From the NCBI RefSeq assembly GCF_023715895.1, contig NZ_JAMBOO010000018.1, forward strand, positions 1 to 64,000: 64,000 nt of DNA. The letters run 5' to 3'. Of this stretch, positions 51,613 to 62,280 are shown piece by piece. The translations under genes and the position numbers were made by a program. The notes below the pieces were generated by a model. That model was not told the DNA's origin and did no database searches. It worked only from the letters and a program-made list of their open reading frames with translations. Source of the DNA: Domibacillus indicus (GTDB taxonomy: Bacteria; Bacillota; Bacilli; Bacillales; Domibacillaceae). Within the stretch, counting starts at the first letter, position 1. The number at the start of each line of letters is the position of its first letter.

Positions 51613-51952
51613 CAGTCAGCACCGTTATTACAATTTAGGACTGTTTTCTGAATGTGAAAAAATGTATCGATGTATAAACAGGACTGAACGAAATAGTTGC
51701 GGATAAATGATGTTAGACACTGGCTTATAACACCAAACATATGGAAGCCTGGGACAGATAATCCCAAATCGAAATGGCCCGCTTATCGTCATGAATTATT
51801 TTTAACCGTTAAAATGCCCTGCTGGTGAATAATTGAACTCTTTCTTGAGTAAAAATAGTTTGTCGTGAAAGGGCCCTCCAAAAAAGTGAAACCTTTAGCG
51901 AGAGAATAGCGTATGCATTTATATACTTCGTTATAAAAGGAGCTGGTATATT
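51613..51952. other. 340-nt stretch without a gene
   Basis: Stops in all frames and no convincing ORF. It has a small inverted repeat (tgggacagataatccca, 51750-51766). Text such as gcctgggacagataatccca resembles the ends of some Bacillus insertion sequences, so it may be a decayed mobile element, though no transposase fragment is readable. The last 60 nt should hold the promoter of the yvbH-like gene, whose Shine-Dalgarno site is AAAAGGAGC. Confidence 0.35.
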
Positions 51953-54626: not shown

Positions 54627-54878
54627 ATGAAATTAATCAGCTGGACGTATACAAAGCGGTATAACGTGAAAGCCGTATTTGATCGGTTTCCGCAATCGAA
54701 TGTGATTTTTCGGCTTATAAACAAATATTATTTTATTTATATTGTGAACTGGTCGGAGCAGGATCCGCCGGTTCGTAAGCAGGATTTGGAGAGGATGGAA
54801 CTGCTGTTGAACGATAAACTTGGAACCGGGCAGTTTTACCGGAATCGCCGATCGAGTAAACAAGGAGGCAAAGGAAGC
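54627..54878 (+). other. In-frame 84-codon extension ahead of the lipid kinase
   Basis: An ATG at 54627 with AGGTGA upstream opens a frame that runs without stop into the lipid kinase start at 54879. The 84 residues (KRYNVKAVFDRFPQSN, NKYYFIYIVNWSEQDPP) look like a real small protein. At 54861-54863 codon CAA precedes the GGAGG of the kinase; TAA there would separate the two genes. It is either a fusion by stop loss or an independent reading frame that lacks its stop. Confidence 0.45.
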
Positions 54879-55757
54879 ATGAAAAGAGCCATGATTATTG
54901 CGAATCCTTCTTCTGGAAAAGAACAGGCGGAGGAATACATTGACTCTATTTATAAACAGCTCCAGGTGTCAGGATATGAGGTGGAAACCCGTTTAACCAG
55001 AGGGGAAGGAGACGCCATGCTTTTTGCAAAAGAAGCCTGTGAACGGCATTTGGATGCAGTGATTGCAATGGGCGGAGATGGAACGATGAACGAAACTGTA
55101 AACGGTCTGGCTGAACAGCCGCACCGCCCTGTTATGGGGGTTGTTCCGCTCGGTACCGTAAATGATTTTGCGCGTGCGCTGCATATTCCGCTCGAGCCGG
55201 AGGAGGCTATTCGGGTATTAGGAGGCAGAACAAAGCCTGCTGATATTGGCAAAGTAAATGGCCGTTATTTTTTAAATATTTTAGCCATTGGCGGGATTGC
55301 AGAAGCAACCGGTGAAGTAACGTCGGCTCAAAAAACGACGCTGGGCGCGCTCGCTTATTTCGTAGAAGGCTTTAAAACCCTGCGGGATAAAACACCATTT
55401 CCCCTGACAATTGAAACGAAGGACCGGACATTTGAAGAAGAAGCCCTTATTTTTCTGGCCGCTCTTACAAATTCAGTGGGCGGATTTGAAAAGCTTGCAC
55501 CTGAGGCAAAATCGGCAGATGGCTTTTTTCATTGCTTTATCGTTAAAGATGTAGCACTGCCAAAATTGATACGTATCGGTGCGAATTTATTAAAAGGAGA
55601 CCTGGGAGAAGACCCGGATGTTTTATATTTCCGGTCCCAAAAATTGAATGTCCGCTCTACAACGGAATTAAAAGCAAATGTAGACGGCGATATGGGGGAT
55701 GCTGTTCCGCTGAGCCTCGAAGTACTGCAGGGCCATATTAAGGTGTTCATTCCATAA
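54879..55757 (+). CDS. Diacylglycerol kinase family lipid kinase
   Basis: 292 aa from ATG 54879, with AAGGAGG at good distance. The DAGK catalytic pattern is clear: RAMIIANPSSGK at the start, GGDGTMNETVNGLAEQ (about 67-82) and PLGTVNDFARAL (about 97-108). Length agrees with the YegS/BmrU/DgkB group. Such enzymes recycle diacylglycerol from lipoteichoic acid synthesis into phosphatidate. Translation from the upstream ATG at 54627 would add 84 residues. Confidence 0.88.
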   Translation: MKRAMIIANPSSGKEQAEEYIDSIYKQLQVSGYEVETRLTRGEGDAMLFAKEACERHLDAVIAMGGDGTMNETVNGLAEQPHRPVMGVVPLGTVNDFARALHIPLEPEEAIRVLGGRTKPADIGKVNGRYFLNILAIGGIAEATGEVTSAQKTTLGALAYFVEGFKTLRDKTPFPLTIETKDRTFEEEALIFLAALTNSVGGFEKLAPEAKSADGFFHCFIVKDVALPKLIRIGANLLKGDLGEDPDVLYFRSQKLNVRSTTELKANVDGDMGDAVPLSLEVLQGHIKVFIP

Positions 55758-55881
55758 GCGATGTCTTTTAACAAAAGACGCCTGTTTCCGTTTATCGCTA
55801 AAAATGACTTTTTCTTCGTTATAGTTAAAAAAGTGAAACGATTCTGCCATCAGTCCGTACATAAAAGTGAGGTGAGTAAAG

Positions 55882-56391
55882 ATGGGGTTTTGGAAGAAGC
55901 TTTTTGGAAGCACTGCAGAAACCGTACCGGAAACAAAAGAGCGGACTCTGTTGAATTTACGAGTTGGCGATTTTGTCACGTATGACTTAGCCGATTATGA
56001 AGTAACGGGAAAAATCCATTACAATGACAGCGGTTATACGTGGGATGCTTATCAGCTTGCTGCATCTGGTAAAACCCTTTGGCTGAGCGTAGAGCTCGAT
56101 GATGAGCTGGAAGTTGGCATGTATGAAAAGGTACGGGTCCCCGGATTGGAGCCGGGAGCGAAAAAAGTAACGCATGATGGGCGCACATACTACCTTGAAG
56201 AAAGCGGACGTGCTTATGTAAAAGCAGAAGGCCGAAGTGAAAACGTCCATGGCAGAAACGTTGATTACTACGATTATACAGATGATTCGGAAGAACACTT
56301 TTTGTCTGTGGAAGTATGGGGTGGCGATGTGGAAGTCAGCTATGGATACGGAATTGAAGAATATGAAATCACTATTTTAGCGGGAAGCTAA
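55882..56391 (+). CDS. DUF4178 domain protein
   Basis: 169 aa. After a short start (MGFWKKLFGSTAETV) the single DUF4178 domain runs from about residue 26 (LRVGDFVTYDLADYEVTGKI) to the end (WGGDVEVSYGYGIEEYEI). Soluble. It begins a run of five closely spaced genes including pspA and a membrane aminopropyltransferase; DUF4178 proteins are found beside PspA and polyamine genes in other bacteria. Function unknown. Confidence 0.82.
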   Translation: MGFWKKLFGSTAETVPETKERTLLNLRVGDFVTYDLADYEVTGKIHYNDSGYTWDAYQLAASGKTLWLSVELDDELEVGMYEKVRVPGLEPGAKKVTHDGRTYYLEESGRAYVKAEGRSENVHGRNVDYYDYTDDSEEHFLSVEVWGGDVEVSYGYGIEEYEITILAGS

Positions 56392-56411
56392 CCAACATTG
56401 GAGGAGAGAAT

Positions 56412-57083
56412 ATGTTTCAATTTTTTAAACGTGTACAAACATACGTAGGTTCCGAGCTGAATGCGGCACTTGATAAAGCGGAAGACCCGGTGAAAATGCT
56501 TGATCAGTTTATGAGGGAAATGTCAGCAGATATTCGTGACGCGGAAACAGCTGTTGCCAAGCAGCTTGCCAACGAAAAAATGCTGAAAAAGAAATATGAC
56601 GACGCAAACAGCATGGTGGAAAAGCGCCAGCAGCAGGCCATTGACGCACTTGAAGCAGGAAATGAGGATCTGGCACGCCGTGCGCTTGAGGATAAAAACA
56701 ATCATGCGAAGCAAGCGGAGTCTATGAAAGAAGCACATAAGCAGGCGGCAGAGGATGTGGCTGTTCTTCGTGAAAAGCTGGCAGAAATGAAGCGTGAATA
56801 TGAAGAAATGCAGATGAGAAAAGATTCATTAAAAGCGCGCGCTGAATCGGCCAAAACGCGCACAAAGATGAACCGCGCCATGTCTTCTATCGGCGGGGAT
56901 GAATCAAGACGCGGCTTTGAGCGGATGGAAGAAAAAGTGATGCAGTATGAAGCAGAAGCTGAAACGTCAGAGGATTTGCGTGCGGGTTCGCGAAGCCTTG
57001 ATGATGAACTTGCTGCTTTAAAGAAAAACAGCGCAGTAGATGACGAACTCGCCGCTCTTAAGCAAAAACTCGGAAAAGAATAA
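56412..57083 (+). CDS. pspA: PspA/IM30 family protein
   Basis: 223 aa, almost wholly coiled coil, beginning MFQFFKRVQTYVGSELNAAL with the amphipathic N-terminal helix used for membrane binding. AEDPVKMLDQFMREM is the conserved PspA sequence. An ESCRT-III-related membrane-remodelling protein that protects leaky membranes. Lies 20 nt after the DUF4178 gene with GGAGGAGAG. Confidence 0.92.
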   Translation: MFQFFKRVQTYVGSELNAALDKAEDPVKMLDQFMREMSADIRDAETAVAKQLANEKMLKKKYDDANSMVEKRQQQAIDALEAGNEDLARRALEDKNNHAKQAESMKEAHKQAAEDVAVLREKLAEMKREYEEMQMRKDSLKARAESAKTRTKMNRAMSSIGGDESRRGFERMEEKVMQYEAEAETSEDLRAGSRSLDDELAALKKNSAVDDELAALKQKLGKE

Positions 57084-57140
57084 GGAACCGCGGTCCGCCT
57101 GTTGCGGCGGGCCGTTTCTGTTCATTTGGAGTGTTTTCAT

Positions 57141-57701
57141 ATGAAAATAAAAAAATGGATGATTGTCACCACTGCATCGGTTTTTCTTTTTGCTGCCTGT
57201 GGCCTGCAGGAAGCAGATGACTATGTTGATGAAAATTATACATTTGTTGATGCTGTGCAAAACAATACAAACACAAACGACCAGGCGATGCTTTACCGCA
57301 CGAATCAAAGCTTGCAGGAAACGGCCGCTGAGCTGATTGATGTAGAGCAGCCAGAAAAAATCGGCCAGGAAGTGGACGGCCGCCAGGTGCTTGTCTATGA
57401 CAATGAATTTATTATTTTAACGGAAGATCTGGAAAATCCAGGCTCCACGCTTGTGGAAGTAGCAGAAGATGAATTTGTCCGTACGCATTACAATCCCGGC
57501 TTTTTCTCAGGCATGCTGCTCGGTTCATTGCTGAATGGGCGTTTTGGTTCAAATTGGGAGCGGACACAAACGAACCGGTGCCGGTATAACGATGGCGGCT
57601 GCTATTCAGGCGGCGGTTATTACGGAGGCGGGACGTTTTCTAATGGCTCTTATGGCCGTGGCTCGACATTCCGCGGCGGCGGACCGGGAGAAGGAAAATA
57701 A
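57141..57701 (+). CDS. DUF4247 family lipoprotein
   Basis: 186 aa from ATG 57141 (TTTGGAGTG upstream). Lipobox LFAACGL in the signal peptide (Cys20). The middle (VLVYDNEFIILTEDLENPGS) fits DUF4247. The C-terminus is Gly/Ser/Tyr-rich (GGCYSGGGYYGGGTF, then FRGGGPGEGK). Outer-face membrane protein of the PspA cluster; role unknown. Confidence 0.8.
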   Translation: MKIKKWMIVTTASVFLFAACGLQEADDYVDENYTFVDAVQNNTNTNDQAMLYRTNQSLQETAAELIDVEQPEKIGQEVDGRQVLVYDNEFIILTEDLENPGSTLVEVAEDEFVRTHYNPGFFSGMLLGSLLNGRFGSNWERTQTNRCRYNDGGCYSGGGYYGGGTFSNGSYGRGSTFRGGGPGEGK

Positions 57702-57726
57702 TGAAACGAAATGAGGGAATGAAGCT

Positions 57727-58122
57727 GTGAATCCATTTTTACTGACATTTTTGTATTTTATCGTAGCCATTGCAGTGGTTGTGGTTGGGCTAATTGTTTT
57801 TGAACAAATTACAAGAAAGTATAAAGACTGGGATGAAATAAGAGGAAACAATACAGCCGTTGCCCTGTCAATCGGCGGGAAAATTATCGGCATCTGTATT
57901 ATTATTACTTTTTCTATTTTTCACAACGATACAATTACAGAAACGATTATATGGGGTTTATTCGGTATGGTGCTGCAGCTTGCAGCGTATATCTTATTTG
58001 AGCTGATGACAAGAAGCTTTTCTGTAGAAGAACAGCTGAAATCAGGCAATCTTGCGGTAGGAATTGTTTCCTTTTCTGTTTCAGTCGGACTGGCGTTTGT
58101 TATTGGCGCTTCGATTTCATAA
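57727..58122 (+). CDS. DUF350 family membrane protein
   Basis: 131 aa with four membrane helices, GTG start. IRGNNTAVALSIGGKIIGI and LKSGNLAVGIVSFSVSVGL are the two repeats of the YjfL/DUF350 family. Located 10 nt before the aminopropyltransferase gene and 26 nt after the lipoprotein gene. YjfL-like proteins accompany PspA (YjfJ) also in E. coli. Confidence 0.85.
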   Translation: MNPFLLTFLYFIVAIAVVVVGLIVFEQITRKYKDWDEIRGNNTAVALSIGGKIIGICIIITFSIFHNDTITETIIWGLFGMVLQLAAYILFELMTRSFSVEEQLKSGNLAVGIVSFSVSVGLAFVIGASIS

Positions 58123-58134
58123 GGCGGTGTTTTG

Positions 58135-59676
58135 ATGACTGAACAGCATTCCATCCGGCAAAGCCGGTCGATTTATTATGCATCGGGCATTGTCTCGATA
58201 TGCGGCATTATCTTTGAAGTACTGTTCGGCGCACTCGGTTCGTACATTTTAGGAGATGGAGTGAAGCAGTATACACTCACCATCTCCCTTTTTTTAACCG
58301 GAATGGGCATCGGCGCATACATAAGCGAGAAAGTAACCCGCCGTTTAATTGCTTCGTTTATTTGGATTGAATACGGCATTGGTATCGTTGGCGGATTTTC
58401 AGCTCTTCTTCTATTTGGCGTAACGGCTTATTTGCCGGAGGGAACAGACGCTTTATTTTTATACAGTGTAACGCTGCTTGTTGGAACGTTAACGGGCGTG
58501 GAGCTGCCCATTTTAATCCGGAAAGCAAATGAAATCGGTGTGTCACTTCAAAAAAGTGCAGCTAAAGTGCTGTTTTCCGATTACGCCGGAGGTTTAATTG
58601 GCGGTCTATTGTTTTTATTTTTGCTTCGGCCATACTTTGGACTTGTGAAAACGTCTTTTCTTGTCGCTTTAATCAACATCGCTGTCGCACTGTGGATTGT
58701 TTTTCAATTTCGTTCTGAATTAAAGCGATTTAAGCTTCATGCGGCGTGCGGCATTGCGTTTTTAGGAATTTTAACAGCCGGGGCTCTTTTTGGTGAGGAA
58801 GCGGCATTTCACTTTGAGCAGAAATTATACAAAGATCCAGTCGTGTTTTCGGAACAAACAGCTTACCAAAAAATTGTTTTAACGAGGGAACAGGGAGATA
58901 CCCGTTTATACTTGGATGGACAGCTTCAATTCAGTTCGTCCGATGAGCACCGGTATCATGAAATTCTCGTCCATCCAACAATGGCAGCAGCTGCCCGCCA
59001 CGACCGTGTTTTAGTGCTTGGCGGAGGTGATGGACTGGCAGTAAGAGAGCTGCTGAAATATCAAGATCTTGGCCGTGTTACACTTGTGGACCTTGATCCT
59101 GCCATGACAGAAACCGCACGTACGAATCACTTGTTAACCGATTTAAATAAGCGATCACTTGATGATCCGCGTGTAGATATCGTCAATCAGGATGCTTTTC
59201 AGTTTTTAGAAAAAGCAGACGGGTTTTATGATGTCATCATTATCGATTTGCCGGATCCAAACAATGAATCACTGAACAAATTATATACCCAGGAGTTTTA
59301 CTCTCTCGCCCGCAATCACTTGCAGGCAGATGGTGCGATGATTGTCCAGGCAACAAGTCCCGTATTTGCACCACAAGTTTACTGGACCATTGACCGGACC
59401 ATCCGGGCAGCCGGATTGAAAACGGAAAACCTGCACGCGGACATTCCAAGCTTTGGCGGGTGGGGATATGTGCTGGCATCAAGAGAGGGCATGGATGTAG
59501 AAGGGCTGTCCTTAATAAAAGATACGCGCTATTTAACAGCTGACCTGCTGCCGGCTTTAACGAAATTCGGGAAGGACGAAGATGCAGAAATGGAAGACGG
59601 GGCCCAAATTGAGCCGAACACCCTTATTCGTCCAAATTTAATTGAAGTTTATGAAAAATCATGGCGCTATTATTAA
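58135..59676 (+). CDS. Membrane-anchored polyamine aminopropyltransferase (spermidine synthase-like)
   Basis: 513 aa from ATG 58135. The N-terminal 200 residues hold about seven membrane helices (ISLFLTGMGIGAYISEKVTR and others). The C-terminal part is a spermidine synthase fold: LYLDGQLQFSSSDEHRYHE (about 260-280), LGGGDGLAVRELLKY (nucleotide-binding), VDLDPAMTETAR and IIDLPDPNNE. The catalytic Asp lies in that last motif. It transfers aminopropyl groups from decarboxylated SAM. Last gene of the cluster; terminator follows. Confidence 0.88.
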   Translation: MTEQHSIRQSRSIYYASGIVSICGIIFEVLFGALGSYILGDGVKQYTLTISLFLTGMGIGAYISEKVTRRLIASFIWIEYGIGIVGGFSALLLFGVTAYLPEGTDALFLYSVTLLVGTLTGVELPILIRKANEIGVSLQKSAAKVLFSDYAGGLIGGLLFLFLLRPYFGLVKTSFLVALINIAVALWIVFQFRSELKRFKLHAACGIAFLGILTAGALFGEEAAFHFEQKLYKDPVVFSEQTAYQKIVLTREQGDTRLYLDGQLQFSSSDEHRYHEILVHPTMAAAARHDRVLVLGGGDGLAVRELLKYQDLGRVTLVDLDPAMTETARTNHLLTDLNKRSLDDPRVDIVNQDAFQFLEKADGFYDVIIIDLPDPNNESLNKLYTQEFYSLARNHLQADGAMIVQATSPVFAPQVYWTIDRTIRAAGLKTENLHADIPSFGGWGYVLASREGMDVEGLSLIKDTRYLTADLLPALTKFGKDEDAEMEDGAQIEPNTLIRPNLIEVYEKSWRYY

Positions 59677-59683
59677 TAAAGAA

Positions 59684-59713
59684 AAAGCCGGTTCCTATTT
59701 AGGAGCCGGCTTT
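59684..59713 (+). terminator. Intrinsic terminator after the aminopropyltransferase gene (left copy)
   Basis: aagccggttcct pairs with aggagccggctt around a short attt loop (59685-59712). A copy with one base difference lies at 60106-60132, beyond the inserted element. Confidence 0.85.
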
Positions 59714-60105
59714 CAGTGTGTAGACAAATGATATGGATGATCATGCACATGAATGGGATGGATCGGCGGCGTCCAGGCAGCTCCGCTTTCCGGGGGGGGG
59801 GGGCTCCCATAGGAGTCGGCGCTGCCCTCCCGCTGCCAAGTGGCTTGCGACAAGATGGTATAGAGCTCATAAGGTCGTATTTTTCTGTTTCAGAAAGAGA
59901 ACATTTCTATTCATTCCTTGCTTATTGCTCTTCAACACCACTTAGTGAAGCCTGCCGGACGAAGACTCCTGCGGGAAGTACAGTGAGTCGGGAGACCCCG
60001 CAGGCGCAGCCGAGGAGGCTCCCGCACTGCCCGTGGAACGCGAAGTCCGGCCGGCTTCACTTATCGGCTCTTTTTTTAAAAGCGAAAGACTTTGTCTACA
60101 CACTG
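59714..60105. mobile_element. 392-bp element with 15-bp terminal inverted repeats
   Basis: cagtgtgtagacaaa (59714-59728) and its exact complement (60091-60105) frame the element. It lies between two copies of a 27-nt terminator. It contains a run of 12 G's (59792-59803) and a nested palindrome module (59944-60061), whose ends agtgaagcctgccggac and gtccggccggcttcact are inverted with one mismatch. No protein is encoded. Looks like a non-autonomous (MITE-like) element whose transposase is elsewhere; the parent family is not identified. Confidence 0.6.
59944..60061. repeat. Nested Bacillaceae-type palindromic repeat
   Basis: Inverted ends (17 bp, one mismatch) enclose actcctgcgggaa, gaccccgcaggcgcag and gaggaggctcccg segments. 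I recognise this text from many Bacillaceae genomes where it recurs between genes; that is memory, not a search. Confidence 0.6.
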
Positions 60106-60132
60106 AGCCGGTTCCTGTTTAGGAGCCGGCTT
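60106..60132 (+). repeat. Right copy of the terminator repeat
   Basis: agccggttcctgtttaggag and the following ccggctt match 59686-59712 with a single A-to-G difference. The hairpin remains but no long U-run follows (gatctg). Confidence 0.8.
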
Positions 60133-62120: not shown

Positions 62121-62280
62121 TCCGTTCCATTTAAATAGTCACTCTCACTATACACGAAAAAGTCATAAATATCCGGATTGAAAAAGGAAAAAAGGGGAAC
62201 ATAAAGAAGGATTATAAAAAAATGAAACGCTTTTGTATAAAGAACGTATAAACCATTAAACGTGAAAAGGATGGATGACC

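Follow-up and report, generated by a model that had tools for sequence, protein, structure and literature searches.

The stretch of DNA analysed here (the window) comprises 64,000 nucleotides (nt) of Domibacillus indicus contig NZ_JAMBOO010000018.1. Five intact, co-directional genes at positions 55882-59676 of its + strand encode a DUF4178 protein, PspA, a DUF4247 lipoprotein, a DUF350 protein and a membrane aminopropyltransferase. The subject of this study is this operon and the lysine-ending tail of its lipoprotein, a candidate acceptor for the aminopropyl group.

The five-gene operon and its promoter

Each of the five proteins exceeded its own Pfam gathering score. The first gene (55882-56391) codes for a DUF4178 protein of 169 amino acids (114 bits, cut-off 25), which is beta-rich and for which neither a membrane helix nor a signal peptide was predicted by eye. 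Its AlphaFold model consists entirely of strands (predicted local distance difference test, pLDDT, 91.0). The second gene (56412-57083) encodes an ESCRT-III-like PspA/IM30 protein of 223 amino acids (PF04012, 159.4 bits, cut-off 33.9). The DUF4247 lipoprotein of 186 amino acids (57141-57701; 55.7 bits, cut-off 27) most likely starts at ATG 57141, contains a lipobox (...LFAAC) and has a Gly/Ser/Arg-rich C-terminal tail. This tail ends in RGGGPGEGK (57672-57698), the proposed acceptor, with the terminal lysine encoded by 57696-57698. It is followed by the DUF350 membrane protein of 131 amino acids (57727-58122; 124.4 bits, cut-off 26) and by the membrane aminopropyltransferase (58135-59676), which carries an N-terminal membrane domain and a C-terminal spermidine-synthase-like domain (Spermine_synth, 126.8 bits, cut-off 22.9). 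The latter protein most likely begins at ATG 58135 and is 513-514 residues long. Apart from these minor start corrections, the five-gene cluster described in an earlier note on this DNA was borne out by the Pfam scores and by the NCBIfam model NF002956.

A strong terminator- or processing-like RNA hairpin was found on the + strand between pspA and the DUF4247 gene (57090-57115). It is kept in ten aligned Domibacillus- or Planococcus-type sequences, 2 of its 14 pairs showing compensatory change, and might govern how much PspA is made relative to the proteins encoded downstream.

Conservation of the operon was examined in 101 loci, consisting of this window and 100 relatives, 80 of them named (the best 80 of 577 relatives). 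Seven loci are duplicates with an identical enzyme sequence, leaving 94, many of which are closely related. Absence of these families from each other's company in other genomes was what the earlier note had named as speaking against its proposal; the identical five-gene order occurs in 70 of the 101 loci, and two more deviate only by a split gene call. Reduced sets, counted with duplicates, comprise DUF4178-DUF350-enzyme in 7 loci and DUF4247-DUF350-enzyme in 7. No PspA was found within 6 kb in loci such as L135-L138, L143-L146, L148 and L151-L159, some of which are short, so that PspA is a common but non-constant member of the operon. Further members of the same-strand gene runs are a short speD-type gene and a K+-channel-type gene, each present in 8 loci and each scanned with Pfam in one case, and a DUF2617 gene, present in 2 loci and scanned in one. 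Among the named loci listed, four Domibacillus records (83-91% enzyme identity) and three Planococcus records (82-83%) are closest. Within the window's own family the enzyme is present in 22 of 24 genomes.

A sigma-W-type promoter, TGAAAC-N16-CGTA, is located on the + strand at 55834-55859, 22 nt upstream of the DUF4178 start codon, and matches the published consensus TGAAACN16,17CGTA exactly (PMC2375139). Among the 85 non-duplicate loci headed by DUF4178, many of which are not independent, 53 have an exact site, 5 a site with one mismatch and 27 a site with two or more mismatches. As a control, exact sites precede 7 of 721 other open reading frames (ORFs) of at least 150 amino acids in the same loci. 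Since the spacer sequences differ among relatives, the site appears to be a footprint and not mere relatedness. All loci with no or one mismatch are of Bacillales type; the site is missing in clostridial and other distant loci and in some Bacillales (e.g. L085 and L132-L134).

The own genome encodes sigW (307.4 bits, cut-off 243.1), preceded by its own exact sigma-W site, and 44 of the 50 enzyme-bearing genomes searched have a sigW above the cut-off. Exact sites number 37 in the own genome compared with 21 for the reversed pattern, indicating that many single sites are due to chance. Other sites precede genes for Spo0M, NfeD, DUF4097, EcsC, Band_7 and DUF975 proteins (six scanned). In Bacillus subtilis, sigma-W genes include spo0M, yqeZ, yvlB and pspA (PMC3498285). 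The promoter consensus is shared with B. subtilis, whose pspA belongs to this regulon; the pspA operon described here is a different one. From the promoter motif we infer that sigma-W probably drives the operon, which lends support to the link with envelope stress suggested in the earlier note. A connection between SigW and this membrane aminopropyltransferase was not found in the open-licence papers searched, and the word 'spermidine' is absent from the regulon paper (PMC3498285).

Two further exact sigma-W-type sites are present on the + strand of the window. One (51887-51913) lies upstream of a bacterial PH-domain gene (51953), the other (62223-62248) precedes a diacylglycerol-kinase-like ORF (62449) by about 200 nt.

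The membrane aminopropyltransferase and its donor

Enzyme residues are numbered from the TTG at 58132. The protein scored 609.8 bits (cut-off 472) against NF002956 (PRK03612; polyamine aminopropyltransferase, 522 positions). In its AlphaFold model (pLDDT 91.9) the C-terminal domain has the spermidine synthase fold (Z 34.9, root-mean-square deviation 2.9, 280 residues aligned to 3anx_A). For an alignment of 99 full-length homologues, plasmid members included, fragments were excluded by a length filter of 470-560 amino acids. The active-site aspartate, on whose integrity the earlier note had made its proposal depend, is D372 (codon 59245-59247) and is kept in all 99 sequences. Together with D372, Q246, Y275, E277, G299, D300, D322, D354 and D375 are kept in 98-99 of the 99, and D320 in 97, being E otherwise. 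The roles of these residues in decarboxylated S-adenosylmethionine (dcSAM) binding, in catalysis and at the far amine we take to be those known from solved SpeE structures.

Comparison of 93 membrane enzymes with 19 soluble SpeE proteins (two of the 21 retrieved, a short one and that of the own genome, were excluded) displayed Q246, Y275, H281, G297, G299, D300, D322, D354, D372, P376, Q406 and W444 as common to both groups. In SpeE the acid at position 190 presumably binds the far amine of the polyamine acceptor (putrescine). This acid, found in 17 of 19 SpeE sequences (14 D, 3 E), corresponds to T408 in 93 of 93 membrane enzymes and in 98 of 99 with the plasmid members. Likewise, SpeE Y223 (18 of 19) corresponds to F441 in all 93 and, with the plasmid members, in all 99, and the V-G-P loop is replaced by N-N-E (NNExLxKLY). 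The change of N191 to S409 is a weaker case, as S also occurs in 5 of 19 SpeE proteins. The membrane enzyme therefore shares with soluble SpeE the fold, the dcSAM-site residues and the catalytic residues, and differs from it by an extra membrane domain and an altered acceptor pocket, the alteration itself being conserved. A lysine side chain offers the same (CH2)4-NH2 end and has no far amine, which would suit a neutral residue at position 408. We know of no established target of membrane spermidine-synthase fusions; Li 2019 is said to have found such fusions widespread in bacteria and unable to replace spermidine synthase in E. coli.

Hydropathy indicated seven N-terminal helices. The K/R-rich loops (64-73, 128-145 and 191-202) contain 9.45 K/R per sequence over 40 residues, compared with 2.36 over 26 residues in the K/R-poor loops (39-45, 98-106 and 164-174), and in 99 of 99 homologues the positive-inside rule favours a membrane domain with its N-terminus inside. 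Combined with seven helices, this orientation predicts an extracytoplasmic catalytic domain, on the same side as the tail. AlphaFold draws residues 139-192 as a single unbroken helix; two crossings in this segment are favoured by two hydropathy peaks and by basic loops on either side.

SpeD, the source of dcSAM, was found in 49 of the 50 enzyme-bearing genomes searched, a set made up of such genomes only; the exception is the genome of locus L149. SpeE was above the cut-off in 37 of the 50, and 12 of the remaining 13 keep SpeD. Among these SpeE-less genomes, SpeD is encoded no more than about 4 kb away from the enzyme gene in four and inside the operon in one. This association of SpeD with the enzyme is in line with what Li 2019 reportedly found and with the citation of that study in Ravi 2024 (PMC11237479). 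The own genome (5.08 Mb) encodes two SpeD proteins (G000:C93:124109-124426 and G000:C104:430849-431046), a short one of 126 amino acids, presumably class 1b and by eye between gapB-like and nrdR-like genes, and a long one of 285 amino acids, presumably class 1a. One more spermidine-synthase-family gene lies on a different contig. Given these genes, the cell can probably make spermidine by the canonical route, the membrane enzyme being an addition to it. The intact active site, the speD-type gene in 8 gene runs and the near-constant presence of SpeD are all consistent with aminopropyl chemistry at the membrane, as the earlier note had suspected.

The lysine tail and its coupling to the enzyme

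GK forms the C-terminus of all 78 DUF4247 homologues, and 77 of them contain GGG within the last 12 residues, mostly as RGGGPGxGK, although the proteins are otherwise divergent (mean column identity 29% in 31 sequences). The 78 tails are encoded by 73 distinct 24-nt sequences, demonstrating selection on the peptide. By comparison, 167 of 1211 other ORFs of at least 120 amino acids in the same loci end in K, and 23 in GK. A lipobox pattern was recognized in 61 of the 78 homologues; that of the own lipoprotein reads FAAC.

The tail is portable. A membrane-anchored ORF ending in GK is located on the same strand within 4.5 kb in 93 of 94 non-duplicate enzyme loci, the sole exception being L100, a 3.2-kb contig. 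Besides lipoproteins, the tail rides on 12 DUF4178 proteins with exactly one predicted membrane helix preceding it. The region between resembles DUF4247 by eye in most of these fusions, and in L158 alone it was scored by the DUF4247 profile. Four ORFs called in our analysis (49, 58, 77 and 79 residues), each with a helix at the N-terminus, also bear the tail, with GGG in L146 and L152. The tails should be outside, given the N-terminal lipobox pattern or predicted membrane helix of their carriers.

The enzyme also occurs in 13 plasmid records, seven of which were opened. Six are full-length (one per genus), and the Rhodovulum enzyme (L191) is cut and was not counted. In all six loci a small transmembrane protein or lipoprotein of the cluster ends in K (two annotated, four ORFs called by us), the termini being ESGK, GPSHK, NSNRVK, RFRHGK, PSSGK and, in a divergent Burkholderia operon, YGSHK. 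These tails are weaker evidence than the 78, since K-ending membrane ORFs were searched for deliberately and four of them are our own calls.

At the DNA level, the pattern GGGxxxGK-stop occurs once in the own genome. Extra matches in the family genomes G019, G020 and G023 were rejected as segments of no more than 25-30 codons following the preceding stop, and so were those in G011, one of which lies in an ABC-ATPase-like protein and one of which ends in TGG and not in a stop. Phage records yielded no match, and in a B. subtilis plasmid with a DUF350 gene the stretch examined holds no further member of the operon's families.

Coupling of tail and enzyme was examined in an even phylum sample of 299 Bacillota genomes. 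The enzyme was above the cut-off in 9 genomes and DUF4247 in 11, which include all 9. In the other two genomes (G085 and G122) the genes for PspA, DUF350, DUF4178 and DUF4247 lie in a row, with the enzyme neither there nor above the cut-off genome-wide. Their DUF4247 proteins end in GGGRIMRRR and GSGKIRKRGRR instead of GK, and the net charge of the last 15 residues is +7 in both, compared with +1 to +4 (mean 2.7) in the 78 homologues. Without the enzyme, the GK end is gone and the encoded charge is higher. The two genomes of the window's own family that do not have the enzyme (G020 and G022) showed no tail gene by the DNA pattern.

Proposed function, alternatives and related systems

On balance we favour, by a judgement drawn from sequence comparison, that the enzyme aminopropylates the C-terminal lysine of the lipoprotein tail and thereby creates a polyamine-like tail on the outer face under envelope stress. 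Envelope stress would free sigma-W and the operon would be expressed. SpeD-made dcSAM would donate its aminopropyl group to the membrane aminopropyltransferase, which would place it on the epsilon-amine of the terminal lysine of ...GGGPGxGK-COOH. With its -(CH2)4-NH2 side chain, this lysine would present a four-carbon amine as does putrescine, the usual acceptor of the fold. The product, N6-(3-aminopropyl)lysine, would raise the positive charge of the tail at the outer membrane face, an idea suggested by the polybasic ends where the enzyme is missing. DUF4178, on the inside, may tie the tail protein to the interior, as its fusion to the tail via one membrane helix in 12 loci suggests; PspA would cover and guard the inner membrane face, with DUF350 as a membrane partner. 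Because of its conserved lysine tail, the neighbouring lipoprotein is a more plausible acceptor than the lipid considered in the earlier note.

Several observations weigh against this assignment. Both enzyme-less tails come from one family (f3), and a single ancestral loss may explain them. The short-ORF tail matches in L156 and L160 are weak and have no GGG, and the residues preceding the final lysine vary in the plasmid loci (HK, VK). A full-length relative on a viral contig (L230) shows no tail, DUF4178 or DUF350, the contig ending 150 nt past the enzyme. On a Vibrio plasmid, a hypothetical protein with a signal-peptide-like start (L220 4141-4500), encoded between a DUF1190 gene and an ATP-grasp ligase gene, ends in GK. 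Moreover, the catalytic domain, if extracytoplasmic as predicted, would sit away from cytosolic dcSAM and need an export route; if residues 139-192 form one crossing, as modelled, it would be inside and the tail would necessarily be modified before export. Finally, a C-terminal lysine also links Braun's lipoprotein to peptidoglycan.

Aminopropylation of a membrane lipid head group, with the tail merely docking or sensing the product, would fit the fusion of the enzyme to a membrane domain, the YegS-type lipid kinase gene just upstream in some close relatives and a nearby phospholipase-D-type (cardiolipin-synthase-like) gene. It seems unlikely, as most of the 101 loci showed none of these lipid genes within 6 kb and neither the conserved free C-terminal lysine on several carriers nor its loss without the enzyme is accounted for. 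We also give little credence to a role in which the enzyme produces spermidine or some other free polyamine at the membrane and the GK tail senses polyamine or dcSAM. The spermidine-synthase fold, the catalytic set and the NCBIfam name point in this direction; against it stand the second spermidine-synthase-family gene of the own genome, the SpeE found in most enzyme-bearing genomes and the change of the putative far-amine residue in 98 of 99 homologues. An exact C-terminal lysine on a flexible-tailed lipoprotein is the pattern of Lpp, and the lysine might be a covalent peptidoglycan anchor as in Braun's lipoprotein, with the enzyme acting elsewhere in the same stress response. That the lysine end tracks the presence of the aminopropyltransferase argues against this reading, which we regard as improbable. 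Least probable is a plain PspA stress operon whose tail is kept for docking to a protein such as DUF350 or the enzyme without any modification: strictly conserved C-termini can act as docking motifs, and PspA and sigma-W tie the operon to envelope stress, but the catalytic residues kept in 98-99 of 99 homologues and the speD-type gene in the run of 8 loci suggest that the enzyme probably acts on something.

Parts of this picture are already in print. An operon type with PspA, CesT-Tir, DUF350, DUF4178, a lipoprotein and a spermidine synthase fused to seven transmembrane helices, and also a DUF4247/DUF2617 variant, has been described (Ravi 2024, PMC11237479). The same paper cites Li 2019 on aminopropylation of other substrates (PMC11237479). 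The gene set is hence not new, and the chemistry, which the earlier note took to be undescribed, has been considered before. Here, PspA and DUF4247 occur together, and a CesT/Tir-type (DUF2170) gene next to pspA was not found among the five genes. A C-terminal lysine tail, a sigma-W promoter and a change of the acceptor site are not mentioned in the pertinent passages of Ravi 2024, and 'lysine' and 'glycine' occur 0 times in its main text (PMC11237479). The open-licence papers searched likewise yielded no earlier account of the lysine tail, of how it is coupled to the enzyme, of the altered acceptor site or of the sigma-W promoter, and DUF4178 is named in one of them.

E. coli has a related arrangement. 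The yjfIJKLM-yjfC genes combine a PspA relative, DUF350 and a Gly/Ser/Arg-tailed lipoprotein with a peptide-spermidine ligase (product name, NC_000913.3), and ygiB-ygiC share the lipoprotein and the ligase only. Unlike in the Domibacillus operon, an ATP-grasp ligase takes the place of the aminopropyltransferase; no such domain was found in the five genes and four flanking genes scanned. The DUF1190 lipoproteins beside YjfC/YgiC-type ligases end in G in 7 of 8 cases, in S in one and never in K, mostly with an SRGGFG-like motif near the end. This set comprises six annotated genes from ten YjfC-type plasmid regions and two from E. coli. Two actinobacterial regions, where the product of the gene preceding the ligase carries a comparable Gly/Ser-rich tail with a final S, Azospirillum (unrelated neighbour) and Photobacterium (DUF1190 gene not readable) were not counted. 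YjfM (L184 7388-8026) ends in HWGG and YgiB (L219 1245-1916) in SMGG, and these Gly-Gly ends make them substrate candidates for YjfC and YgiC. Homology of DUF4247 with DUF1190 (hhalign 33.5%) and of DUF4178 with DUF2491 (30.9%; 31.1% with YjfK alone) was not supported, as only the lipobox or the first approximately 40 residues matched.

A polyamine-derived group on a protein lysine is known from hypusine and deoxyhypusine in eIF5A. There, an aminobutyl group from spermidine is attached to an internal lysine of a cytosolic factor, unlike the proposed transfer of a dcSAM aminopropyl group to the C-terminal lysine of an envelope lipoprotein. A fold search with DUF4178 returned nothing from the PDB at E ≤ 0.001 (the best hit had an E of 0.038); EF-P and eIF5A N-terminal domains in the best rows of VIA-align (Z 6.1, 58 residues) are within the range of no clear match and were not taken as evidence.

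Some neighbouring features were regarded as separate from the system. The upstream lipid kinase gene (54627-55757, + strand) is adjacent in only some close relatives and was therefore not included. In relatives, its first approximately 84 codons correspond to a small ORF of its own (e.g. L039 3205-3495, no Pfam match), making an in-frame fusion or an overlapping gene pair possible. A downstream gene in 27 loci, metallo-beta-lactamase-like by eye, was judged genomic neighbourhood. After the enzyme gene, two copies of a palindromic 27-nt repeat flank a stretch of about 390 bp with perfect 16-nt terminal inverted repeats (59713-59728 and 60091-60106); the whole region (59686-60132) looks like a small mobile element. 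The own genome also encodes a second PspA.

A wider reading, which we put forward tentatively, is that bacteria possess an extracytoplasmic modification by which a membrane-embedded spermidine-synthase relative aminopropylates the C-terminal lysine of a portable GGGxxGK tag on envelope proteins. A parallel ATP-grasp system would attach whole spermidine to tails that end in Gly. In either system, lipoprotein tails would become polyamines on demand under envelope stress, and where a lineage has lost the enzyme, the charge would be encoded as arginine. If the proposed reaction takes place, it would constitute a new type of protein modification, would help to account for the retention of SpeD in SpeE-less genomes and would tie PspA and sigma-W to polyamine metabolism within a single response to envelope stress. 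As the conserved lysine end is absent from the sampled enzyme-less genomes, the question of the substrate is narrowed to one mass-spectrometry experiment.

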